Positions 1 through 17,425 of a stretch of DNA of 21,596 nucleotides are shown piece after piece. The notes beneath the pieces are model-generated. The model searched no databases and was not told where the DNA came from. It saw nothing but the letters and a program-made list of their open reading frames with translations. Each line of letters begins with the position of its first letter. The first letter of the stretch is position 1. A program made the translations under genes and the position numbers. The stretch lies in the IMG/VR virus record IMGVR_UViG_3300007523_000101, positions 1-21,596 of that record; one strand, 5' to 3'. The DNA comes from a virus.

Positions 1-830
1 CACACGAAAGAGGTTTTATAGCGGAAGCCCCAAGCCGCAATAATCGGAAGGCACTCAAAAAGCAAGGGTGACGTTACCCAAAGAAAAAGGACTGCATCCG
101 GCTCGCAAAGCTCTTTGATCGGCATTGCGCTCAGCTCGGAAATGCTCATTGATGGATAATGAAATTTAGCGGGGCCGTAATCCTCAGTAAGTTTATCGCC
201 GTATTTCCACGGAGGATCAGCATAAATGACCCGAAATTTTGCGTCGGGCAATAATGCCGCGGCTTTAACCTTCACGGACCGAACCGTCCTTCTAACCTCG
301 TTAATTTTCTTTTTCCCCTCAAAAACTTCCTGCGCAAGATCCGGGTGAGTCACGGCGAGCTCCTCCATGGCCTCAAACTTTTTGCCCGCCCGCCGGATGG
401 TTGACTCGTTAACTCCGTGCTCTTTGGCCAAGGACTCGGCGGTTTTCAAAGTGTCCAATTTGGACACTTTGTTTTTGTCAGCGTTTGTGTTTCCGGTTGG
501 AGCCCCGACCGCCTTCTTCGTCCGGGAATGACGCCTACCGCGAAGCCAACTGAGTTGATCCGGCGAAAGGTTACGCCTGCCAAGCTGGTTTGCATCCATC
601 CAGTCCATTGCGGCATCAGCATCGGCAAAAACCATTGCCACCGTCTCAAACGGAATGCCCAGCCGTGTGCAAATCTCGAATCGGTTGTGGCCGTCGATCA
701 GGGTGCCATCCCAGGTTACCAGCGGGTCACTGCAACCGTGCGCGACAAGGTTGGCTTCGAGCTGGGCAAGTTCCTCGGGAGAGAGTGGCGGGATCAGTTT
801 CTGAAATGCGGGATCAATTTTCGGGGTCAT
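1..830 (-). CDS. ParB-like / MT-A70 family DNA adenine methyltransferase (partial, 3' end off window)
   Basis: Read on the minus strand from ATG at 830-828; 276 codons stay open to the window edge. Residues about 10-95 look like a ParB N-terminal domain, with DGHNR at 46-50. Residues about 130-152 read as a helix-turn-helix (ESLAKEHGVNESTIRR). The MT-A70 motif DPPW is at 205-208, followed by the family-typical FLWVTSPLLFECLPI and GFRYKTSFV. MT-A70 enzymes transfer a methyl group from AdoMet to N6 of adenine; the ParB and HTH parts probably contact DNA. Likely roles are protecting phage DNA from host restriction or regulating early genes (inference). It is the only leftward gene here and has its own promoter just upstream. 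No Shine-Dalgarno precedes the ATG, and the predicted transcription start falls within about 0-2 nt of it. The C-terminal third is outside the window. Confidence 0.88.
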   Translation of the reverse strand, partial: MTPKIDPAFQKLIPPLSPEELAQLEANLVAHGCSDPLVTWDGTLIDGHNRFEICTRLGIPFETVAMVFADADAAMDWMDANQLGRRNLSPDQLSWLRGRRHSRTKKAVGAPTGNTNADKNKVSKLDTLKTAESLAKEHGVNESTIRRAGKKFEAMEELAVTHPDLAQEVFEGKKKINEVRRTVRSVKVKAAALLPDAKFRVIYADPPWKYGDKLTEDYGPAKFHYPSMSISELSAMPIKELCEPDAVLFLWVTSPLLFECLPIIAAWGFRYKTSFV

Positions 831-838
831 TTGCGAGA

Positions 839-866
839 ATCATACCGTAACCGCGTTAAGAGTCAA
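839..866 (-). promoter_or_regulatory. Sigma70-type promoter for the leftward methyltransferase gene
   Basis: On the minus strand, TTGACT (866-861) is followed after 16 nt by TATGAT (844-839). Each hexamer matches the sigma70 consensus at 5 of 6 positions. Only 8 nt separate the -10 element from the ATG, so the transcript should start at or next to the start codon. Confidence 0.6.
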
Positions 867-922
867 AACTTTTTTCGCGTGGATGAGTTTGATTCCTAGC
901 GAGTTATGAAGAGCGCGTAAAA

Positions 923-951
923 AATAACAAGAAATAGCTTGATCTGTTATT
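923..951. repeat. Inverted repeat, candidate operator in the divergent promoter region
   Basis: Perfect 7-bp arms AATAACA (923-929) and TGTTATT (945-951) are separated by 15 nt, and the right arm lies between the -35 and -10 of the rightward promoter. The location suits a repressor site, for example for the ribbon-helix-helix protein encoded just downstream (inference). Confidence 0.4.
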
Positions 952-966
952 GCGCTACGGTATTAT
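939..966 (+). promoter_or_regulatory. Rightward early promoter
   Basis: TTGATC (939-944), a 16-nt spacer, then TATTAT (961-966). The -10 matches sigma70 at 5 of 6 positions and the -35 at 4 of 6. The predicted transcription start, about 973, coincides with the GTG at 974, so the first gene may be translated from a leaderless mRNA. A TTG at 950 would lie upstream of this start site and is therefore disfavoured. Confidence 0.5.
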
Positions 967-973
967 TTCGGTT

Positions 974-1132
974 GTGAAACAAAAAGCATCACCCAAAAAG
1001 ACGCGAACCAGCGTGAGCGTCTCCATCCCGTCAACGCTCCTGAAAAAGGGGCAAACCACCGCTCACAATCTAGATCAATCGTTTAGCTATTTTGTGACGC
1101 GGTTGCTCCGAAAAGAACTCGAATCGAAATGA
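974..1132 (+). CDS. Small ribbon-helix-helix DNA-binding protein
   Basis: A 52-aa protein from GTG 974. The pattern TSVSVSIPSTLLKKG followed by two predicted helices ending in FVTRLLRKEL fits the Arc/MetJ-type ribbon-helix-helix fold: an alternating beta strand, then two helices. Such proteins bind DNA as dimers, usually as repressors. It is the first gene of the rightward early operon and sits beside an inverted repeat that overlaps the promoter, so autoregulation is plausible. An upstream in-frame TTG at 950 would add 8 residues but precedes the predicted transcription start. The basic N-terminus (KQKASPKKTRT) is typical of a DNA-binding arm. The fold assignment comes from pattern only. Confidence 0.6.
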   Translation: MKQKASPKKTRTSVSVSIPSTLLKKGQTTAHNLDQSFSYFVTRLLRKELESK

Positions 1133-1150
1133 TCCCTGCAACCCACACTG

Positions 1151-1173
1151 AAAACCACCAACAAAAAAATATC
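1151..1173 (+). promoter_or_regulatory. G-free A/C-rich leader before the gene at 1174
   Basis: 23 nt without a single G (AAAACCACCAACAAAAA then AATATC) abut the ATG, and no Shine-Dalgarno is present. Similar leaders occur before 1378, 1670 and 3270. Confidence 0.5.
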
Positions 1174-1347
1174 ATGATCGAACTCCTATCACTTATCTGC
1201 CTGATCGTCGCATCATTTGCGGCCTCATGCAAAATCACCGAACTCGCAACCAAAAAGCAGCAGGACCTAAAATGGCGCGAATGGTGCGAAAACCTGCGGC
1301 CTGGAGCCGGGCCAGACGGGCTGGACCGCGACGGCAACAGACCCTGA
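1174..1347 (+). CDS. Small putative membrane-anchored protein, unknown function
   Basis: A 57-aa protein. The N-terminus is hydrophobic (IELLSLICLIVASFAASC, residues 2-19). A charged region (TKKQQDLKWREWCENLR) and a Gly/Pro/Asp tail follow. This looks like a single N-terminal membrane segment or an atypical signal peptide; the Cys at 19 lacks a good lipobox. ATG 1174 is chosen because it follows the A/C-rich leader seen before neighbouring genes and opens directly into the hydrophobic stretch. The in-frame ATG at 1129 overlaps the stop of the previous gene (ATGA) and would add 15 polar residues, so it remains possible. No family is recognised. An early position behind a regulator suggests a host-interaction role (inference). 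Confidence 0.5.
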   Translation: MIELLSLICLIVASFAASCKITELATKKQQDLKWREWCENLRPGAGPDGLDRDGNRP

Positions 1348-1354
1348 ACCCGAG

Positions 1355-1377
1355 AATCAAAATCAACCCATAAAAAA
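1355..1377 (+). promoter_or_regulatory. G-free A/C-rich leader before the gene at 1378
   Basis: 23 nt with no G (AATCAAAATCAACCC then ATAAAAAA) directly precede the ATG. There is no Shine-Dalgarno. Confidence 0.5.
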
Positions 1378-1647
1378 ATGACGAAAAGAACAACAATCGA
1401 AATCGACGTCGAAATCGAATACGACTACGACCCAGGCACGGAACCCTATATCTCCGGGGCTCCTGAGGACTGCTACCCCGGCGAGGACCCCGGGGTTGAG
1501 ATCCAGAGCATCGAGTTAGTCCACCAGACCCGAGATGTCATCACTGGCAAAGTCTCGACCGCTAGGCTCGACATTGTGGACCATATAGACCCAGCCATCC
1601 TCAGCGCAATTGAGGACAATCTCATCCAAGACGGACCCGCAGAATAA
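1378..1647 (+). CDS. Small acidic protein, unknown function
   Basis: An 89-aa protein with a strongly acidic composition. The N-terminus alternates as a beta strand (TTIEIDVEIEYDYDPGTEPY). Next comes a Gly/Pro/Asp-rich stretch (SGAPEDCYPGEDPGVEIQS), then a strand and a helical end (DPAILSAIEDNLIQ). The ATG follows an A/C-rich leader with no Shine-Dalgarno. I do not recognise a named family. The acidity raises the possibility of a DNA-mimic or host-inhibitor role, but nothing beyond charge supports it. It lies in the early operon between a membrane-type small protein and the recombination module. Confidence 0.65.
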   Translation: MTKRTTIEIDVEIEYDYDPGTEPYISGAPEDCYPGEDPGVEIQSIELVHQTRDVITGKVSTARLDIVDHIDPAILSAIEDNLIQDGPAE

Positions 1648-1669
1648 ACCACCAACTAAAACCAAAATT
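1643..1669 (+). promoter_or_regulatory. G-free A/C-rich leader before the gene at 1670
   Basis: 27 nt with no G (including ACCACCAACTAAAACC) separate the stop region of the previous gene from the ATG. There is no Shine-Dalgarno. The motif closely resembles the leader before 1174. Confidence 0.5.
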
Positions 1670-1945
1670 ATGAATACAACAACACCGGCTGAAACGCCAA
1701 AAGACATCATTGCAGAAATGAAAGCTGCGACAGACCGCGAGGGGATCGAATCAGTCTGCCTCCTCATCACGAAAGGTTCGGGGGGGCCATTCTGGAATGT
1801 TTTCACACGCACCGGAAATGCGAGTGGCACGACGCTGGAAAAGGCTATCGACGCCTCAAAGCTGATTGAGGGGACGCGCATCAAAAACCTGAGGGCAGAA
1901 GCAGCCCTCATCGGAATGACACTCGTTAAGGAGGAATCGAAATGA
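1670..1945 (+). CDS. Hypothetical protein directly upstream of the RecT-like gene
   Basis: A 91-aa protein from ATG 1670; an upstream in-frame TTG at 1610 would run through the previous gene and is rejected. The N-terminus is Thr/Pro-rich. The body mixes strands (SVCLLITKGSGGPFWNVFTR) with a C-terminal helix (LEKAIDASKLIEGTRIKNLRAEAALIG). The 3' end contains a strong Shine-Dalgarno, AAGGAGG at 1928-1934. The stop overlaps the next start as ATGA, so translation of the RecT-like gene is probably coupled to this one. No family is recognised. Position suggests a recombination accessory or early regulatory protein (inference). Confidence 0.6.
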   Translation: MNTTTPAETPKDIIAEMKAATDREGIESVCLLITKGSGGPFWNVFTRTGNASGTTLEKAIDASKLIEGTRIKNLRAEAALIGMTLVKEESK

Positions 1946-2601
1946 GCGCAACCGAGACCCAAATCACTGACGTGCAATTTCAAATCTCCCGCGAGTCGGA
2001 AGCGTTTGAACTGGTCCAACGCCAAGCGAAAATGCTGGCAGCATCAACCCTCATCCCTAAGGAATTCCAGGGCAATATGTCCAACTGCGCCATCGGGTTG
2101 AATATCGCCAAGCGTCTTGGGGCTGACCCGTTCATGGTCCTTCAGAATATCGACATCATCCACGGTCGCCCCGGATTCAGAGCGTCGTTCCTCATTGCGA
2201 TGGTCAACGCCAGTGGCCGATTCACCCCGCTGAAATTTAAGATGACGGGCGAGGGCATGACGAAAACTTGCGTTGCGGTCACGACAGACAAGGACAGCGG
2301 CGAGATCGTAGAGGGGCCGGAAGTCTCAATGCAGATGGCTAAGGCAGAAGGCTGGTCGGAAAAGGCGGGCAGCAAATGGAAGACCATGCCTGACTTGATG
2401 CTCCGCTATCGAGCAGGAGCTTTCTTCGCGCGAATCTATGCACCGGACATTACGTTGGGAATGCAAACTGCTGAAGAGTTACGCGACGTAAAAGGCTTCG
2501 AGACGGCAAAGCAAGTGCAAGCCATCTCCGAACCGCTTGACCCGTTTACTCCGCCTGAGTTGCCAGAGGCCACCGCCACCGCAGAAGAGGAATCTGAATG
2601 A
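1942..2601 (+). CDS. RecT-like single-strand annealing protein
   Basis: A 219-aa protein. The region ASTLIPKEFQGNMSNCAIGLNIAKRLGADPFMVLQNIDIIHGRPGFRASFL matches the core of phage RecT-type annealing proteins in its order of motifs. The later segment MAKAEGWSEKAGSKWKTMPDLMLRYRAGAFFARIYAP is equally characteristic. RecT-type proteins bind single-stranded DNA left by a partner exonuclease and anneal homologous strands. The C-terminal about 30 residues are Pro/Glu-rich and acidic. The start at ATG 1942 has AAGGAGG 7 nt upstream and overlaps the preceding stop; its own stop overlaps the YqaJ start as ATGA. The pairing with YqaJ is the classic two-gene annealing system. RecT-like family membership rests on motif recall rather than a search. 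Confidence 0.78.
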   Translation: MSATETQITDVQFQISRESEAFELVQRQAKMLAASTLIPKEFQGNMSNCAIGLNIAKRLGADPFMVLQNIDIIHGRPGFRASFLIAMVNASGRFTPLKFKMTGEGMTKTCVAVTTDKDSGEIVEGPEVSMQMAKAEGWSEKAGSKWKTMPDLMLRYRAGAFFARIYAPDITLGMQTAEELRDVKGFETAKQVQAISEPLDPFTPPELPEATATAEEESE

Positions 2602-3239
2602 ATATCTTTCGCGACATTGAACAGGGCTCGCCCGAGTGGATCGCCATCCGCAAGGGCCACCCGACGGCTTCCCGTTTCTCTGACATCATCACGGCGGCGA
2701 AAGGCGAGTTGTCGAAAAGCTCCACGGGCTACATCCGCGAGCTAATCGGCGAGTCGTTTTGCCCTGACTGGGAGGAGTGGCTCGGCAACAAATTTACGGA
2801 CCGGGGCAAAGAGACCGAGCCGGAAGCTCGGGATGCGTTCGCAACTATTCTTGACGGCACCCTTAGAGTTGAGGAAGTCGGCTTCGTCCTGGGGGATGAT
2901 GGCGTCTGCGGATGCTCTCCAGACGGCCTAATCTATAAGGGCGACTTGCTCGTTTCTGGGGTGGAAATCAAATGCCCGTCGCCAAAGGTCCACGTCGGCT
3001 ATGTATTAGATGGGGGACTGCCCGCTGCCTACGCACAACAGGTCCATGGCTCAATGGCTATTACAGGAGTGCCTGAGTGGCATTTCTGGAGCTATTTCCC
3101 CGGCCTGATGCCGTTGCATATCATCGTTAAACGAAACGACTACACCGCAAAACTCGGAACCGCTCTAGCGCAATTTGTGGCGAGCTATAAGGCGGCTTAT
3201 GCCGACGCTCTCCCACGGCTCAAAATTCCCAATCAGTAA
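2598..3239 (+). CDS. YqaJ-type viral recombination exonuclease
   Basis: A 213-aa protein with the YqaJ/lambda-exonuclease layout. QGSPEWIAIRKGHPTASRFSD is at residues 9-29, and GKETEPEARDAF (70-81) carries the first acidic motif. SPDG at 107-110 supplies the catalytic Asp (D109), and the EIK motif at 123-125 supplies Glu and Lys; Q148 lies in the later QQVH helix. The family is the PD-(D/E)XK nuclease group that resects double-stranded ends 5' to 3', giving single strands to the annealing protein. Its start overlaps the RecT-like stop, so the two are translationally coupled. Length is normal for the family and no catalytic residue is missing. Confidence 0.88.
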   Translation: MNIFRDIEQGSPEWIAIRKGHPTASRFSDIITAAKGELSKSSTGYIRELIGESFCPDWEEWLGNKFTDRGKETEPEARDAFATILDGTLRVEEVGFVLGDDGVCGCSPDGLIYKGDLLVSGVEIKCPSPKVHVGYVLDGGLPAAYAQQVHGSMAITGVPEWHFWSYFPGLMPLHIIVKRNDYTAKLGTALAQFVASYKAAYADALPRLKIPNQ

Positions 3240-3269
3240 CCAACACCAAAAACCAAACAGAAAAACATC
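3238..3269 (+). promoter_or_regulatory. A/C-rich leader before the SSB-like gene
   Basis: 32 nt of almost pure A/C containing one G at 3260 (AACCAACACCAAAAACC, then AAACAGAAAAACATC). It directly precedes the ATG without a Shine-Dalgarno and matches the leaders at 1151, 1355 and 1643. Confidence 0.5.
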
Positions 3270-3551
3270 ATGAGAAAAGCACAAATCGACGTTACAAAAA
3301 TCATCAAAGCAAAACTCTACAAGGGCAAGAAAGGCACTTACCTGGACCTGACCTTTATCGACAACAAAGACGGGGAAGACGAGTGGGGGAACATGGGCTT
3401 CATCGTGCAAGACCTTGGAAAAGAAGCGCGGGAAGCTGGTGAGAAAGGGCCGATCCTTGGCAACTGGAAGGAGATCGCAACTAAGAAAGCTTCTGCGGCC
3501 AGTCCTGAACCTACCACCGAACAAGACGACTCAAAGGCCCTCCCGTTTTGA
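3270..3551 (+). CDS. Putative phage single-stranded DNA-binding protein with SSB-like C-terminal tail
   Basis: A 93-aa protein. Residues about 3-65 alternate as strands (IDVTKIIKAKLYKGKKGTYL, then DLTFID, then MGFIVQDLGKEAR), consistent with a small OB-like beta barrel. A flexible Ala/Ser/Pro/Thr linker follows, then an acidic tip ending DDSKALPF. Bacterial SSBs end in an acidic stretch closing with ...PF, which recruits repair and replication partners, so the tail is a strong hint. It sits directly after the RecT-like and YqaJ genes, where phages often encode an SSB. The mapping to a specific family is by pattern, and a general recombination accessory protein is the alternative. Confidence 0.55.
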   Translation: MRKAQIDVTKIIKAKLYKGKKGTYLDLTFIDNKDGEDEWGNMGFIVQDLGKEAREAGEKGPILGNWKEIATKKASAASPEPTTEQDDSKALPF

Positions 3552-3598
3552 GCAATCTCCGGTTGGGCATCAACACCCAGCCGGACCCATTTTTAATC

Positions 3599-3781
3599 AT
3601 GACTGAGCGTGATCTAATAATCCACCAGCTTCACAAAATCCACGGAACCAAAACCAAATCTGAACTTATGCACGAACTTTATTACCGCAACCTTTGCAGC
3701 GACCTTTGCCTATGCCTTGACGACATCGCAACTCTGGATTTGTTGCGAGCTTACAACGCTGGACTGCGGGAGGCTCAATGA
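3599..3781 (+). CDS. Small hypothetical protein
   Basis: A 60-aa, mostly helical protein (TKSELMHELYYRN, then LDDIATLDLLRAYNAGLREAQ). The C-terminal helix-rich part ends in overlap with the next gene (ATGA). ATG 3599 is taken as the start. An in-frame TTG at 3548 overlaps the stop of the SSB-like gene and would add 17 residues, so the N-terminus is uncertain. No family is recognised. It is co-oriented and tightly packed within the recombination/replication operon. Confidence 0.5.
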   Translation: MTERDLIIHQLHKIHGTKTKSELMHELYYRNLCSDLCLCLDDIATLDLLRAYNAGLREAQ

Positions 3782-4089
3782 GCAACAAATCCCCATCTCG
3801 CGTAGTCCCTAAACAAATACTTGACCTCACTCGGTTGATGGAATTTGCTAAGGCGAACGGATTCCCGAACGCAAGTTCGCTGATTTGGGAGGTGAATAAT
3901 CCCGAATTTCCCGCAGAGGACCTGAAGACATTGCTGGACGATTGCTGCGGCGAGGCTCGGGTGACATTCGGAATTGACCTCGGCATTACCCCGCTGATAG
4001 CTCGGCGGGACACAGACGAAGATGGCAATGATGGCGAAGATTATTTCGCTAATGACACGCCATGGACCAGCGCGGAGGGGAAGAAATGA
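3778..4089 (+). CDS. Hypothetical protein in the replication operon
   Basis: A 103-aa protein. A basic N-terminus (SNKSPSRVVPKQILDL) leads into helices (LTRLMEFAKANGFPNASSLIWEV, then AEDLKTLLDDCCGEARV). The C-terminal about 30 residues are acidic and end in DTPWTSAEGKK. The start overlaps the previous stop (ATGA), with GGGAGG at 3768-3773 as ribosome binding site, so it is probably coupled. The stop overlaps the VRR-NUC start in the same way. No known domain is recognised. Its place between an SSB-like protein and a nuclease suggests a replication accessory role (inference). Confidence 0.6.
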   Translation: MSNKSPSRVVPKQILDLTRLMEFAKANGFPNASSLIWEVNNPEFPAEDLKTLLDDCCGEARVTFGIDLGITPLIARRDTDEDGNDGEDYFANDTPWTSAEGKK

Positions 4090-4520
4090 ATATCCGAGAT
4101 TTGACCGACAAGCAAAAGCTCCTGATGTCCACCAAGGACCGGAAATCATTTGGTAAATCTGGAGTAACATACGACGAGGCGGAAGCGGGTGCCGTTGCGA
4201 AGTCCGAAATGGAATTGCAGGGGCAGCTTTACAGTCTGCTATACCGTCGCGGTCACCGGCCCCGAATGCAGCCCACCCGAAAACGCAGCCAGATTGCGCC
4301 AGGGATGCCCGACATCGCCTTTGAAATTCACGGCCTAAGCGTCCACTGGGAAGTCAAATTGCCGGGGAAGAATCCGACCCCGCAGCAATACAAATGCCAC
4401 CGGGAACTAGCAGCGGCTCCGAACGGGGCTATCGTCCGCGTGATCCGCTCGTACCGGGAAGGGCTTGACAACCTGGCTGAGATGTCTTCCGTGAATAAAA
4501 CGCTTGCCATAGACGGCTGA
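4086..4520 (+). CDS. VRR-NUC domain nuclease
   Basis: A 144-aa protein. The VRR-NUC (PD-(D/E)XK) signature is present in order. E43 sits in SEMELQGQLYSLL. PGMPDI at 72-77 supplies D76. HWEVK supplies E89 and K91. The Q-containing helix TPQQYKCHREL (98-108) follows, and the strand AIVRVIRSYREGLDNL ends the domain. Phage VRR-NUC proteins are structure-specific nucleases, some acting as Holliday-junction resolvases. ATG 4086 overlaps the preceding stop and has GGAGGGG at 4074-4080; an earlier in-frame ATG at 4062 lacks this context. The extra about 38 N-terminal residues are polar and not part of the domain. The role in resolving replication or recombination intermediates is inferred from the neighbours. 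Confidence 0.82.
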   Translation: MNIRDLTDKQKLLMSTKDRKSFGKSGVTYDEAEAGAVAKSEMELQGQLYSLLYRRGHRPRMQPTRKRSQIAPGMPDIAFEIHGLSVHWEVKLPGKNPTPQQYKCHRELAAAPNGAIVRVIRSYREGLDNLAEMSSVNKTLAIDG

Positions 4521-4522
4521 AC

Positions 4523-4576
4523 TTGACAATAATACACAGTGTATGCTTTTATACACGAAACTTTGACAAAATGCAC
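4523..4576 (+). promoter_or_regulatory. AT-rich block with palindromic half-sites before the replication initiator
   Basis: A perfect palindrome with a 1-nt centre, ATACAC-A-GTGTAT (4532-4544), is followed after 6 nt by a third half-site ATACAC (4551-4556). Two copies of TTGACA (4523-4528 and 4563-4568) flank the cluster, each followed by a similar A-rich stretch ending in CAC. The second copy abuts the gene start at 4571. The layout suits an operator or origin element controlling the initiator gene. No -10 box lies at ideal distance from either TTGACA, so promoter activity is uncertain. Confidence 0.45.
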
Positions 4577-5434
4577 TTTACAAAACTTTTTTCTTCAATT
4601 TTAGATTCTACCATTTGGCAGGAACCAGCCCATACGAAACTTACTTGGATCACGATGCTTGCCATGGTTGACCGCCACGGCGAGGTCCACGCATCAATTC
4701 CCGGCCTTGCGGCTAGAACGGGTGTTTCTATACAAGAATGCGAGGAGGCTTTAGCCAGTTTCCAGACGCCAGACCCCTATAGTCGGACGAAAGACCACGA
4801 AGGAAAGCGGGTGAAAGTGATAGATGGCGGCTGGGCTTTACTGAACCACGGGAAGTACTGTACTCTCCTAAGTGCCGAAGAGAGAAGGGAATACAACCGG
4901 GGGAAGCAGGCTGAGTACCGGGCTCTTGCCAAGGCCGCAAACCTGGCAATGACTGTCAATGACACAAATACACAGGCAGCTACAAATGTATCAAATGCAC
5001 ACATAGTAGATGTAGATGTAGATGTAGATGTAGATGTAGATGTAGATGTAGATGTAGATGTAGAAAAAGAATTACCGGAACCTACGGTTCCTCCCATCAT
5101 TGCTGCGTGGAATTTGTGCGGATGTTTCCCCAAAGTCTCGAGCCTGGGGGCAAAGCGCAAAGCGATATTCTCAGCAAGGATGCGCGACCGCTATTTCCGG
5201 GATCATGCCTTGGAGGCGATTCAGATGATTTCCAAGAGCGATTTTTGCACCGGGAAAAACGACCGTGGTTGGGTGGCAAACCTCAACTGGTTCCTCCGCC
5301 CCGGCAAGGTGGAGGAAATCATGGAGGGCGCATTCAGCCGCCGAGGGAACCAAAAAACCGCCACGGACAACGCAATCAAACCCGGCGAATACAAAAACCT
5401 TGTATTTGACCCCAACACACCTGAAAACCAATGA
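4571..5434 (+). CDS. O-like replication initiator protein
   Basis: A 287-aa protein. Residues about 6-98 resemble the winged-helix N-terminus of phage replication initiators (SILDSTIWQEPAHTKLTW, then GLAARTGVSIQECEEAL, then GGWALLNHGKY). A charged helix (AEERREYNRGKQAEYRALAKAA) and a linker of nine Val-Asp pairs (146-164) follow. The C-terminal domain, about 170-260, runs IIAAWNLCG, RKAIFSARM and ISKSDFCTG, then WVANLNWFLRPGKVEEIMEGAF. This is the helicase-recruiting type seen in O- and DnaT-like proteins. Proteins of this kind bind the origin and bring in the DnaC-like loader and host DnaB. ATG 4571 is chosen because it opens straight into the domain; TTG 4523 would translate the upstream half-site region. 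The stop overlaps the DnaC-like start. Confidence 0.78.
   Translation: MHFTKLFSSILDSTIWQEPAHTKLTWITMLAMVDRHGEVHASIPGLAARTGVSIQECEEALASFQTPDPYSRTKDHEGKRVKVIDGGWALLNHGKYCTLLSAEERREYNRGKQAEYRALAKAANLAMTVNDTNTQAATNVSNAHIVDVDVDVDVDVDVDVDVDVEKELPEPTVPPIIAAWNLCGCFPKVSSLGAKRKAIFSARMRDRYFRDHALEAIQMISKSDFCTGKNDRGWVANLNWFLRPGKVEEIMEGAFSRRGNQKTATDNAIKPGEYKNLVFDPNTPENQ
5007..5064 (+). repeat. Tandem hexanucleotide repeat (TAGATG, 9 full copies plus 4 nt)
   Basis: Nine uninterrupted copies of TAGATG (5007-5060) and a partial TAGA lie inside the initiator gene and encode alternating Val-Asp. Each unit is two codons, so copy-number change by slippage would alter linker length without shifting the frame. Confidence 0.95.
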
Positions 5435-6156
5435 CAACAGATTTACAACTCCCGGAAATTTTAATCCGTCTCAGCGCAATCCCGGTGCGCTCCGACGCCG
5501 AGATCCGCGAATGGACCTGGCGCAATGAGATACGCCCGATTCTTGCCGATGCCGGGTTTGATGGACGATTCCGAGAACGGGCCGATTGGAATCTGGAGCC
5601 GAATCAGAAAAAGGTGTTCCGGGTGGTAAGATCCAAACTTCTTGGCGAAGGGGCTATCATCGCCTTGGTAGGAATCCGTGGTACCGGGAAAACTACCATC
5701 TCAGCGCAAATTGCAATCCAGCTTGCTGAGGAGTGGGTTGCCTACTGGAATCAGTCGCAACGGCGCGAGAATGCCCCGATTGGCCTCCCGATATACCGCA
5801 AGATGCTTTCTATCGTTGAGATTCTTAAACCACTTTATTCTGATCACGGGTCAACGCGGACCGATTCGCTGGTGGCAATGCGGGACGCGCTATGCTCAAT
5901 CGGACTCCTGATAATTGATGAAAAACACGACGCGAACGCCCTTAATGTCGCTCCGAGGATTCTGACTGACATCATTGACCGGAGATATTCCGCCAAAAAA
6001 GACACTATCATCATCAGCAACGAGTCTGCTGTAGAGTTCGAGCAAAATACCGACGACTCTATCATCTCACGTTTATCGGAGCACGGAATGATCGTCCCCT
6101 GCAACTGGCCGTCGATGAGAGCGCGAAAAACAAACGCACCTCCCTTTAAGGGATGA
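5431..6156 (+). CDS. DnaC-like helicase loader ATPase
   Basis: A 241-aa AAA+ protein. Walker A is GIRGTGKTT (81-89), Walker B is LLIIDE (159-164), and a sensor-1-like strand is TIIISNES (192-199). ISRL near 212-215 sits where DnaC/IstB proteins carry the arginine-finger region. The N-terminal about 75 residues would contact the helicase. DnaC-type proteins load replicative DnaB helicase at the origin. No phage helicase or DNA polymerase is seen in this window, so the partner is probably host DnaB. The start overlaps the initiator stop (ATGA), which supports joint function. No conserved residue is missing. A 52-nt gap follows before the packaging genes. Confidence 0.85.
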   Translation: MTTDLQLPEILIRLSAIPVRSDAEIREWTWRNEIRPILADAGFDGRFRERADWNLEPNQKKVFRVVRSKLLGEGAIIALVGIRGTGKTTISAQIAIQLAEEWVAYWNQSQRRENAPIGLPIYRKMLSIVEILKPLYSDHGSTRTDSLVAMRDALCSIGLLIIDEKHDANALNVAPRILTDIIDRRYSAKKDTIIISNESAVEFEQNTDDSIISRLSEHGMIVPCNWPSMRARKTNAPPFKG

Positions 6157-6208
6157 TAGAAGGGATTTTTAAGTTGCCCCTGTCAAGCCTTTTTGCTATC
6201 CATCAACC

Positions 6209-6604
6209 ATGCCACCTAGGAAAAAAAATAAAATAGGTCGTCCTTCCACATTCACCGCCAAGACAGTCAATGAAATCTGCCAACGGCTTTCAAAGGGCGA
6301 GGGTCTAGCGGTAATTTGCAGAGATGACAAAATGCCAGGGGTTCAGACCGTTTACGACTGGGCCTTTAAATATGAGGATTTTTCCGTTGCCATCGTACGC
6401 GCGAGAGATCAGGGATTCGATGCAATCGCCCAAAAAGCCTTGGAGATTGCCGATGAACGAGGAGAAGACCCGCAATCCCGCCGGGTGATGGTGGATACCC
6501 GGCTGAAGCTCCTGGCGAAATGGTGCCCGAAGAGATACGGGGACAAGATCGAGGTGGAGCAGACAGGCCAGCAAATCGTCACTGTAGTGATTGGCGGAGA
6601 ATGA
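6209..6604 (+). CDS. Terminase small subunit
   Basis: A 131-aa protein. It begins with a basic stretch (PPRKKNKIGRPSTFT) and an HTH-like region (TVNEICQRLSKGEGLAVICRDDKMPGVQTVYDWAFKY). The middle ARDQGFDAIAQKALEIADE and the end MVDTRLKLLAKWCPKRYGDK are typical of the GRPS-type terminase small subunit family. Small subunits recognise the packaging site and regulate the large subunit. The stop overlaps the large-subunit start (ATGA). A 52-nt gap separates it from the helicase loader; no convincing promoter or terminator was found there, so late transcription may continue from upstream. Confidence 0.85.
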   Translation: MPPRKKNKIGRPSTFTAKTVNEICQRLSKGEGLAVICRDDKMPGVQTVYDWAFKYEDFSVAIVRARDQGFDAIAQKALEIADERGEDPQSRRVMVDTRLKLLAKWCPKRYGDKIEVEQTGQQIVTVVIGGE

Positions 6605-7941
6605 CCGGCGACACCGAAATAAGGCTGGAAATCAACCCGCGCAAGCAGATGCGGCCGTATCTGGAGCGTAAGGAGAGATGGGCCTGCATGGTCATTCATC
6701 GCAGGGGCGGGAAGACATTCGCCTGCATTCAGGATCTCCTGACCAAGGCTTTGACCTTCAAGCGTCCGGGCCCCCCTCTCCGGTATGCCTACATCGCGCC
6801 CACACGCGACCAGGGGAAGGACATCGCTTTTGGATATTTGGTCTCCTTCGCAGGCCAGATACCAGGCGTGGAGATAAACCGCGCCGATTTGATGATCACC
6901 TTTCCGAATAAGGCGAGCATCAGGATTTACAGTGGTGAATCATACGACCGGATGCGTGGACTGTATTTCGATGGAGTGATTTTTGATGAGTATGACGACG
7001 TTGACCCCGGCGCGTGGAACTCAGTGGTGCGTCCTACCCTCTCCGATTACACGGGCTGGGCTACATTCATTGGCACCCCAAAGGGCCGGGGGAGCTTCTG
7101 GAGGCAATGGAGCTATGCCTTGCAACAAGATGACTGGTTCACCCTCATCCTCAAGGCGAGCGAAAACGGGATCATCAACCCAGAAGAGCTGGCCGACATC
7201 AGGAAATCAACCCCGGAGCATATTTATCAACAGGAATATGAGTGTTCGTTTGCCATCGGTCGGCCTGGGGCCATCTTCTCGAAGCAGATTGAAGCGGCAA
7301 GGGCCTCCATGCGGATTACCGATAATGTCCTCTGGTTCAAAGAATTGCCGGTCTATTCATCGTTTGACGTTGGAGCGGCCCGAAATCAAAAGGTCTGGAT
7401 CTGGCAAATGGTTGGTGACCGGATCAACTACCTCGAAGCTCTCTCTGGTGATGACGAATGTAAGACTCCCGCTGATTGGGCTGCCCGCCTCATGACGAAA
7501 AGATACCGCTACGGAGCCCACTTCCTCCCGCATGATGCTTGTGCGGAGAATGGCGGTCTCTGGCAAGATGGCCTCGGCACAGGTGGGTTGTCTCATGTGG
7601 TCGGAGTGCCTCGGCAAAGGTCAGTGTGGGATGGGATCAACCTAGCCGTGGATGCCTTCGAGCGGGTGCATTTTAATGATTCGGGTTGCTCGGATGGGCT
7701 TGACGCTCTGGACGCCTACCATTCCAAGGAGGAACGCGATGGTGTGACGATCAAGGATGTTCCCTCCCACGATTGGGCCTCCCACTACTCGGATGCGTTC
7801 TCCCTATCGCACCAAGCCATCAAGGCGGGGCTCGTTATGGACAGAAGCGCAATTGCGGCCCGTCCACGATCCGGCCAGCGTCCCACCGTCCACTTGGGTA
7901 TTCGGGGGACAAATTCAATCAAGGTCAATATCCGTCGATGA
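6601..7941 (+). CDS. Terminase large subunit (DNA packaging ATPase/nuclease)
   Basis: A 446-aa protein from ATG 6601, coupled to the small subunit by ATGA with GGAG just upstream. The ATPase motifs are a Walker A variant HRRGGKT (33-39), Walker B VIFDE (126-130) and the coupling motif ATFIGTPKG (154-162). The C-terminal nuclease has candidate metal-binding acids D256 (SFDVGA), D312 (PHDA) and D398 (YSDAF). It pumps DNA into the prohead through the portal and cuts the concatemer. A longer reading from 6520 runs through the small subunit and is rejected. The length suits podoviral large terminases. The packaging mode (cos, pac or direct repeats) cannot be told from this window. Confidence 0.93.
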   Translation: MTGDTEIRLEINPRKQMRPYLERKERWACMVIHRRGGKTFACIQDLLTKALTFKRPGPPLRYAYIAPTRDQGKDIAFGYLVSFAGQIPGVEINRADLMITFPNKASIRIYSGESYDRMRGLYFDGVIFDEYDDVDPGAWNSVVRPTLSDYTGWATFIGTPKGRGSFWRQWSYALQQDDWFTLILKASENGIINPEELADIRKSTPEHIYQQEYECSFAIGRPGAIFSKQIEAARASMRITDNVLWFKELPVYSSFDVGAARNQKVWIWQMVGDRINYLEALSGDDECKTPADWAARLMTKRYRYGAHFLPHDACAENGGLWQDGLGTGGLSHVVGVPRQRSVWDGINLAVDAFERVHFNDSGCSDGLDALDAYHSKEERDGVTIKDVPSHDWASHYSDAFSLSHQAIKAGLVMDRSAIAARPRSGQRPTVHLGIRGTNSIKVNIRR

Positions 7942-8294
7942 CTCCGATTGACCGAGTGAGGCAGCTCTATCGACAGTGGCCGCAACCTCGAACCTTCGAG
8001 GAAGATGTCCGCGCCCATTTGCAAGTTGGCCATGTGCTCCACAATGATGATTGCTTTGGTTTGGGGAGAGCGGTCAATCGGTGGGCTGGTTCGGAAATTA
8101 TCGATGACCCTTGGCGCAGCTTTGATAAGGCGGACCAAAACGCATGGCTGATTTTTGCATACGCGGGGCGACTCAAAACAATTCTTGACTTTATCCCCTA
8201 CAAATTGCAATTCATTGGTTTCCAACGACGGGGAAAAACAATCCGGTATTATGATTTTGACAAACTTCTTCAGCGCATTCGGCAAGCGGGTTAA
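7938..8294 (+). CDS. Hypothetical protein between terminase and portal
   Basis: A 118-aa protein whose ATG at 7938 overlaps the terminase stop (ATGA). It contains RTFEEDVRAHLQVGHVLHND, then CFGLGRAVNRW, SFDKADQNAWLIFAYAG and KTIRYYDFDKLLQRIR. Trp-rich and mixed alpha/beta, it has no membrane segment and no recognised catalytic motif. Small genes at this place in podovirus genomes are usually conserved but uncharacterised. It overlaps the next gene by 44 nt in another frame. Function unknown; a head-morphogenesis or packaging accessory role is inferred from position only. Confidence 0.65.
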   Translation: MTPIDRVRQLYRQWPQPRTFEEDVRAHLQVGHVLHNDDCFGLGRAVNRWAGSEIIDDPWRSFDKADQNAWLIFAYAGRLKTILDFIPYKLQFIGFQRRGKTIRYYDFDKLLQRIRQAG

Positions 8295-10577: not shown

Positions 10578-10924
10578 TCGAATTAAAAGGAAACACCGTC
10601 TTGCGAGATGGGGAAGAGGTTGGAGTGGTGGACGAAAAGAACGTCTTCCATCCAGTCCAAGGCTTGCACCACAAGACCGTCACAATGGTCGAAAAGGAAC
10701 TTTCCAAAAACCAGGGTGGACAAGCGGCAAGTCGCTTGCCTCATAAGCAAGAGATCGCCGGTTCGAGTCCGGCCCCTGGCACCACTTCGCTTAAAGGCGA
10801 GCCTGAACGAACTGAACTTGGGGACATTGACCCGGATCTGATCGAATGGCGGCGCGAGAATTGGACGGAAGCTGATTTCGTCGCGTTATATCCCGCATCC
10901 CGGTTGCGGCAACTCGGGCTTTAA
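10574..10924 (+). CDS. Hypothetical phage protein interrupted in frame by a tRNA gene
   Basis: A 116-aa ORF coupled to the Bbp19-like gene by ATGA. The N-terminal part (MIELKGNTVLRDGEEVGVV then FHPVQGLHHKTV) and the C-terminal part (LGDIDPDLIEWRRENW then DFVALYP) look like a normal small structural-region protein. Residues 46-70 are encoded by the complete tRNA at 10710-10784 and read as a low-complexity linker. The tRNA length, 75 nt, is a multiple of three and has no stop in this frame, so the ORF stays open. Removing the insert would leave about 91 residues. Whether the protein is still made, or the locus now serves mainly as a tRNA gene, cannot be decided from sequence. Confidence 0.6.
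   Translation: MIELKGNTVLRDGEEVGVVDEKNVFHPVQGLHHKTVTMVEKELSKNQGGQAASRLPHKQEIAGSSPAPGTTSLKGEPERTELGDIDPDLIEWRRENWTEADFVALYPASRLRQLGL
10710..10784 (+). tRNA. tRNA with CAU anticodon (elongator Met or Ile2), CCA encoded
   Basis: All cloverleaf elements are present. The acceptor is ACCAGGG (10710-10716) with CCCTGGC (10774-10780), 6 of 7 pairs, with an A-C mismatch at 1-72. The D stem is GAC/GTC with A14, G18-G19 and A21 conserved. The anticodon arm is CTTGC (10735-10739), loop CTCATAA, then GCAAG (10747-10751), with CAT at 10742-10744. The variable loop is AGATC. The T arm is GCCGG, TTCGAGT, CCGGC (10757-10773). ACCA closes the gene at 10781-10784. The anticodon stem lacks the three G-C pairs of initiator tRNA, so it is elongator Met or, if C34 becomes lysidine, Ile2. 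It lies fully inside a protein ORF on the same strand. Confidence 0.92.
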
Positions 10925-16952: not shown

Positions 16953-17425
16953 TGAAAGGCCCAATTCACATTCGAGATATGCGCGAAGGCGATATGGTGG
17001 CGTTTGATGCCGTGGGGCTGGAGTCGTATCGCGCCGCCGAACCGGTGATTCTGACTGTCGGAAAAGGCTGGGCTGTCGAAAACGAAGCTTCGCAGATTGT
17101 CGCGATTGGTGGCATCATTCCCTCGCATCCAGGCTCAGGAGAGTCTTGGTTCATCATTGAGCCATCTTTGCAAGAATATCTTTCGGGGCTTCGCGCTCTA
17201 TCGTTCATCCGTTCCTGTCGTGATTTTATCATCAGCGCATTTGTATCTTTAGACCTACACCGCATCCAAGCCCACATCATCGCTTCCCCGGCAACCGGGT
17301 CGTATCAGAGTGCTCGGTTCGTCCGGTGCATGGGATTCGTGAGCGAAGGAATCCGTCAAGCTTGGGGACCAAGCGGAGAAGATATGGAAGAATTTGTCCT
17401 ATTTCCACAGAAGGAGGAGTTCTAA
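16949..17425 (+). CDS. T7 gp13-like protein with GNAT-type acyltransferase fold
   Basis: A 158-aa protein. KGWAVENEASQIVAIGGIIP, then GESWFIIEPSLQEYL and FVSLDLHRIQAHIIAS followed by RFVRCMGFVSEG, is the strand-helix order of the GNAT fold. This also occurs in T7 gp13-type proteins, which are needed for virion assembly. In this location, between nozzle and gp14-like genes, it occupies exactly the gp13 slot of T7. Whether it keeps acyltransferase activity is unclear. ATG 16949 overlaps the preceding stop, with GGGAGG at 16933-16938; an upstream reading from 16931 is less likely. Its stop overlaps the next start as TAATG. Confidence 0.75.
   Translation: MMKGPIHIRDMREGDMVAFDAVGLESYRAAEPVILTVGKGWAVENEASQIVAIGGIIPSHPGSGESWFIIEPSLQEYLSGLRALSFIRSCRDFIISAFVSLDLHRIQAHIIASPATGSYQSARFVRCMGFVSEGIRQAWGPSGEDMEEFVLFPQKEEF

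Follow-up and report, generated by a model that had tools for sequence, protein, structure and literature searches.

The 143-nt gap (positions 831-973) between two divergent genes of an uncultured tailed phage carries, at each of its outer ends, a sigma-70-type promoter sequence that points outwards and whose -10 element ends only 7 or 8 nt before the start codon of the gene it faces. The best explanation, with a probability slightly above one half, is that the gap is a divergent control region in which two sigma-70-type promoters fire outwards and the first proteins on both sides are made from leaderless or near-leaderless mRNAs. Transcripts are predicted to begin 0-2 nt before the AUG of a ParB/MT-A70 gene on the left and 0-1 nt before the GUG of a ribbon-helix-helix (RHH)-like gene on the right, and the genes behind the latter would start mostly without a Shine-Dalgarno (SD) sequence inside the operon mRNA. 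The promoter pair behaves as a module, since in related phages the left promoter is followed by a different, swapped-in ParB/MT-A70 gene. The sigma-70 consensus and the start-site rules applied throughout are those of E. coli; they are assumed and may not be the host's.

The gap, its promoters and its neighbouring genes

The window, meaning here the whole stretch of DNA analysed, comprises one entire IMG/VR virus record (21,596 bases), and the record may itself be a genome fragment. Profile matches reveal RecT-like, YqaJ-like, Sf6-type terminase, portal, capsid and tail genes, a set that makes the phage probably podovirus-like. Bases 1-8000 had no DNA match among 50,697 annotated phage records. 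A host search through the portal protein gave no match in 84,980 genomes; one through the left gene gave matches that were distant, mostly to MT-A70-domain proteins and spread across many phyla, and no host was assigned.

The left gene (3-830, minus strand, starting with ATG, its 3' end lying off the record) encodes a ParB-like/MT-A70 methyltransferase (PF05063, E 9.2e-10; phrog_359, E 4.2e-33). The right gene (974-1132, plus strand, starting with GTG) encodes a 52-aa protein of CopG/Arc-like RHH type, recognized by profile searches and homologues, and heads a rightward operon that includes the RecT and YqaJ genes. Its assignment comes from family profiles: the family profile matches the RHH structure 9kkd with E 0.00099, and RHH_1 is matched by six of ten family members (best E 0.0013), while the window protein by itself scores 17.5 bits against CopG_antitoxin, below the Pfam cut-off of 28. 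A monomer model consists of one helix at residues 20-51 (mean pLDDT 85.5, pTM 0.47), which is uninformative on the fold, and a Foldseek search with this model returned 0 matches. The RHH-like protein is a candidate regulator, and the gap beside it probably functions in early or immunity control. The preliminary description had spoken of the first early proteins on both sides; the left gene, being ParB/MT-A70-like, need not be early.

The gap has a GC content of 39%, against 53% overall. On its left side, read on the minus strand, the -35 element TTGACT (861-866) is followed after 16 nt by the -10 element TATGAT (839-844), and a discriminator of 8 nt, TCTCGCAA (838-831), leads to the ATG at 830-828. 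On its right side, on the plus strand, TTGATC (939-944) is followed after 16 nt by TATTAT (961-966), and a discriminator of 7 nt, TTCGGTT (967-973), leads to the GTG at 974-976. Both sequence and promoter scan thus confirm the two divergent promoters, with the hexamers, 16-nt spacers and distances of 8 and 7 nt that had been described earlier. In the scan of the gap they are the top-scoring promoter-like sites aimed at their respective genes, and the sole further site scoring at least 8/12 is ATAACA-18-TATTTT, 90 nt from ATG 830.

The likelihood of such an arrangement arising by chance was estimated with 20,000 dinucleotide-preserving shuffles of 831-973, each scored for a promoter-like site that reaches 9/12 or more and ends 4-10 nt ahead of the start codon. 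Such a site appeared before the right start in 0.70% of shuffles and before the left start in 0.63%; a single shuffle (1/20,000, 0.005%) had one on each side. The geometry was picked after it had been seen, so this last percentage serves for orientation and is no corrected probability. Matches of at least 9/12 at any position on both strands were present in 1.3% of the gap shuffles. Among the other window genes, with starts picked by us from the list of open reading frames, 0 of 28 have a site of at least 9/12 located 4-10 nt upstream.

A repeat search found that a 12-mer, TACGGTATNATT, occurs in the window in two exact, inverted copies, one on each -10 element. The left arm, TACGGTATGATT (838-849, minus strand), overlaps the left -10, and the right arm, TACGGTATTATT (956-967, plus strand), overlaps the right -10; the repeat is a possible operator or extended promoter element. 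It is only partly kept in relatives, with TAAGG on the left in L002 and L004 and CACGG, TATGG and CATGG on the right, which weakens the case for a conserved operator.

Close and distant relatives

Identity to the contigs L003 and L004-L006 is about 94% over positions 806-1148, and to L002 it is 84% over 806-1340. The aligned region 780-1160 yields four haplotypes, namely the window, L002, L003 and L004 (L005 and L006 are identical to L004 and were counted once). Both -35 hexamers are invariant in all four (12 of 12 positions). The left -10 reads TATTAT in L003, and the right -10 reads TATTAT, TATTAT, CATTAT and TATTGT in the window, L002, L003 and L004, respectively. Of the 29 positions in the spacer, -10 and discriminator on the right, 9 vary, compared with 10 of 72 in mid-gap and 4 of 36 in the left core; the right -10 with its surroundings is the most variable part of the gap, and the left core barely exceeds mid-gap in conservation. 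In L003 and L004, where the right -10 is weaker, positions -15/-14 read TG, an extended -10, and the two TATTAT haplotypes read CG there; this would fit compensation, but with four haplotypes the pattern is suggestive only. An excess of variable gap sites resembling third positions in the GTG frame (4, 6, 13) was taken as chance.

When 2.9 million viral contigs were scanned for the left promoter together with its start, L002-L006 were again the only contigs recovered. In three of the four close haplotypes (L002, L003 and L004-L006) the left gene is swapped, and the protein is another ParB/MT-A70 protein that begins MKKHKYNI, the native N-terminus in L338 and L339. The five contigs keep the promoter, the old ATG and its first eight codons (MTPKIDPA, or MNPKIDPA in L003), corresponding to window 806-830. 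After these codons the old frame ends in a TGA that overlaps the ATG of the new gene as ATGA, and the swapped-in gene starts 24 nt downstream of the kept ATG and 31 nt after the -10. With the same +1, this gene would have a leader of 23-25 nt without an SD; alternatively, it would be translated by re-initiation from the small open reading frame. KIDPA matches what is seen at the N-terminus of the window-type left-gene family, so the arrangement in the window is probably the older of the two.

The geometry was rejected as a property of the left gene itself. It precedes the gene's own start in 0 of 53 distinct relatives of the window left gene (80 loci, of which 73 have a match starting in the first 15 residues and 53 are distinct upstream) and in 0 of 46 distinct relatives of the L004-type left gene (75 loci, 46 of them distinct with a usable start, two of the 46 being the close clade itself). 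The geometry belongs to the promoter module and not to the left gene.

From 1151 to at least 3000, contig L007 matches the window at 99.9% identity. In its positions 2590-2875, compared with window 806-1150, the RHH gene is missing and other small divergent genes are found instead. Taken as a whole, these comparisons suggest that the region is an exchangeable control module.

Phages whose portal proteins are 53% identical have a gene for a homologue of the RHH-like protein (36-43% identity), separated by about 110 nt from a second, divergent small gene, and the inverted repeat there differs from that of the window. In L257, L258 and L259 two divergent small genes, both RHH-looking and the left one labelled so by eye, flank a gap with the inverted repeat CAAAAGTTAACAAG / CTTGTTAAATGTTTG. 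No site of the window's geometry occurs in seven more distant loci, and the idea of an old trait was rejected on this ground. The divergent layout appears to be older than the leaderless geometry.

These comparisons bear on the earlier claim that the same geometry on both sides is unlikely to be accidental. The rarity of the pair among the shuffles and its absence from the other window genes uphold that claim; the absence of the geometry from the seven more distant loci and the displaced start of the left gene in L002-L006 count against it.

Start codons, leaders and competing explanations

Both start codons are well supported by comparison. GTG 974 is the earliest possible in-frame start in L004, where it follows an in-frame stop, and homologues at 37-43% identity align from their residue 1, which supports the same codon. 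A start at TTG 950 was rejected, as it reads TTC in L004. ATG 830 fits the N-terminus of most left-gene relatives, M-x-I-x-IDPEFKALIPPL (M-x-I-x-IDPEF), which begin at the same point or a few residues off.

Bacterial RNA polymerase prefers a +1 located 7 bp downstream of the -10, with 6, 8 and 9 bp possible as well (PMC5730371, in excerpt). On the left, the seventh and eighth bases after the -10 are both A and the ninth is the A of ATG, for a predicted leader of 2, 1 or 0 nt; on the right, the seventh base is T973 and the eighth is G974 of the GTG, for a predicted leader of 1 or 0 nt, both by E. coli rules that may not be the host's. Because the -10 elements end 7-8 nt from the codons, there is almost no room for a leader, provided that the promoters are used and that the host polymerase is E. 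coli-like. The earlier statement that standard spacing places +1 on or beside both codons therefore holds, within 0-2 nt, under those two provisos. Leaderless or near-leaderless mRNAs on both sides are plausible from this spacing.

Leaderless genes are widespread in bacteria and are recognized by the position of the -10; those of the TA-led class have a TA-rich, -10-like TANNNT about 10-12 bp before the start codon (PMC3160421, in excerpt). Leaderless mRNAs are also reported to be translated in the presence of kasugamycin, to which they are resistant. Counted to the first base of the start codon, the first T of the -10 lies 14 bp upstream on the left and 13 bp upstream on the right, and the two genes are counted here as carrying the TA-led signal. 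The start codons themselves differ, AUG on the left and GUG on the right; at a 5' end AUG is usable, and in some phyla GUG is too. A leaderless GUG works at less than 10% of the level of AUG in E. coli and is efficient in mycobacteria (PMC4633059, in excerpt), and it is likewise described as a poor start in E. coli in the consulted portion of PMC9031893.

Neither start has an SD, as had been noted before: no 4-nt core lies in -20 to -4 of 830 or 974. However, this does not discriminate in favour of leaderless translation, for which it had been offered as an argument and for which it was rejected as support, because the core is absent at 20 of 30 window gene starts (830 and 974 among them) and present at 10. 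The closely spaced, operon-internal genes at 1174, 1378, 1670 and 3270 lack both an SD and a promoter-like site of at least 8/12 within 110 nt. Some SDs in the window are strong, as at the RecT gene at 1942 and the gene at 17425, and A-rich stretches precede many gene starts. For the proposal that the first proteins are made by leaderless translation, what endures is the geometry and the TA-led signature; the SD argument, the GUG at the right start and the lack of conservation with distance detract from it.

The abundance of starts without an SD gives weight to an account in which the promoters are real and translation is ordinary non-SD initiation. Transcription would begin loosely or slightly upstream, the start region would be AU-rich and unstructured as at most genes of this phage, and the leaderless geometry would be incidental. 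The operon-internal genes, which start with neither SD nor promoter-like site, are in keeping with it, as is the left gene of L002-L006, which would be translated behind 23-25 nt of SD-free leader; however, the short distance from -10 to codon leaves such a mechanism almost no leader to work with if the promoters are used, and we consider it rather unlikely. The promoters themselves might be questioned, the sigma-70 matches being chance products of an AT-rich gap while the real promoters use another sigma factor or sit elsewhere in the gap. The sigma-70 consensus may indeed not be the host's, purifying selection on the hexamers is not apparent beyond the -35s, and in distant relatives the divergent layout persists although such promoters are absent. 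Yet shuffles of the same AT-rich gap reproduce both geometries once in 20,000 and yield matches of at least 9/12 anywhere on both strands in just 1.3% of cases, so that a chance origin is quite improbable.

A further possibility accepts the promoters and changes the reason for their position: the 12-mer TACGGTATNATT would be foremost an operator of an RHH-like repressor that shuts both promoters, and closeness to the starts would follow from the overlap of operator and -10, not from selection for leaderless mRNA. The two exact inverted copies on the -10 elements and the RHH/CopG-like neighbour, recognized at the profile level, point in this direction, and so do the distant relatives, in which two divergent small RHH-like genes flank a different inverted repeat. 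The 12-mer is nevertheless not kept in relatives, and the window RHH protein alone falls below the Pfam cut-off. This possibility, which is compatible with outward-firing promoters and leaderless mRNAs, is tentative and somewhat on the unlikely side.

The phage tRNA and known control regions

A tRNA gene with anticodon CAT is found in the window at 10710-10784 (plus strand) and in relatives at L148 4693-4767, L155 10490-10564, L154 11962-12036, L161 11965-12039, L156 5142-5216, L151 5721-5795, L153 3398-3472 and L159 2026-2099. ARAGORN places it about 290-440 nt downstream of the end of the portal gene in 8 of 11 related or module-sharing loci. The L159 tRNA matches tRNA-Met genes of E. coli along its full length with 81.6% identity, the median number of such places being 4 per genome, and its match in E. 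coli K-12, the initiator gene metY, is just upstream of rimP-nusA-infB. The phage tRNA has A11-U24, a feature of initiator-type tRNAs, and four relatives have an AGG/CCU anticodon stem. Position 1-72 is C-A in L151, L154, L155 and L159, U-A in L153, L156 and L161, and A-C in the window, the readings for L151, L153 and L156 having been made by alignment to drawn tRNAs. A mismatch at 1-72 marks 98.6% of initiator tRNA genes, 99.5% of elongators being paired there, and the AGG/CCU stem of the L155 type occurs in 522 initiators versus 2 others (PMC5143459, in excerpt). The window tRNA is without the G-C run in the anticodon stem, is identical to the E. coli gene at 53 of 75 positions and gave no full-length E. 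coli match; this copy may be altered or decayed. By these features the phage tRNA looks like a bacterial initiator tRNA.

More initiator tRNA is reported to favour leaderless mRNAs strongly (PMC9031893, in excerpt), and the VapC nuclease targets initiator tRNA (PMC12482277, in excerpt). The phage tRNA could serve to supply initiator tRNA or to evade nucleases that cut it. A link between the tRNA and the leaderless promoters is a guess against which co-occurrence speaks: the L004-type records G014 and G016 have the promoters and no tRNA match, and the tRNA-bearing G007, G010 and G011 (by ARAGORN; only G011 passes by the Rfam model) are without the promoter geometry. Very improbable, in our judgement, is the broader notion of a phage built for non-SD initiation, with leaderless control-region mRNAs, most later genes free of an SD, an initiator-like tRNA of its own that raises initiator tRNA during infection, and, in L002-L006, a swapped-in gene reached by re-initiation after a leaderless 8-codon reading frame.

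Phage lambda provides the classical comparison. Its leaderless cI mRNA arises from PRM, and only the cI side is leaderless, cro having an SD leader. The window resembles it in having a control-region gene without a leader, here by prediction, and differs in that both sides are predicted to be leaderless. The cI mRNA is described as a leaderless phage mRNA in the parts consulted of PMC4488713 and PMC9031893. A closer parallel is the telomere phage PY54, whose divergent cI and cro each give one leaderless species by 5' RACE (PMC4488713, in excerpt). As in PY54, the divergent promoters share one intergenic region; the PY54 mRNAs start at the start codon, whereas leaderlessness is only predicted here. 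PY54 also pairs the CI and Cro repressors, both starting with AUG, whereas the window pairs a ParB/MT-A70 gene (AUG) with an RHH-like gene (GUG). The left and right genes of the window are not the divergent CI-like and Cro-like helix-turn-helix repressors of a PY54/lambda-type switch. A -10-like TANNNT near the start and no SD are shared with the TA-led genes (PMC3160421, in excerpt; Zheng et al. 2011), which form a genome-wide statistical class, whereas here two genes are concerned in a phage where most starts are without an SD. A literature search found no RHH/ParB-MT-A70 phage pair with leaderless mRNAs, a result that is not proof of absence. With PY54 as a known doubly leaderless divergent region, the gap is plausibly a further case of this kind and involves no new mechanism.

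If the 5' ends lie as predicted, the gap would be a further phage control region, with regulators other than CI and Cro, in which both divergent first genes are leaderless. The leaderless GUG start, if true, would be informative about the ribosomes of the host. The relatives constitute a natural experiment, in which the same promoter and ATG are followed by another gene 24 nt downstream, and which separates leaderless initiation from re-initiation.
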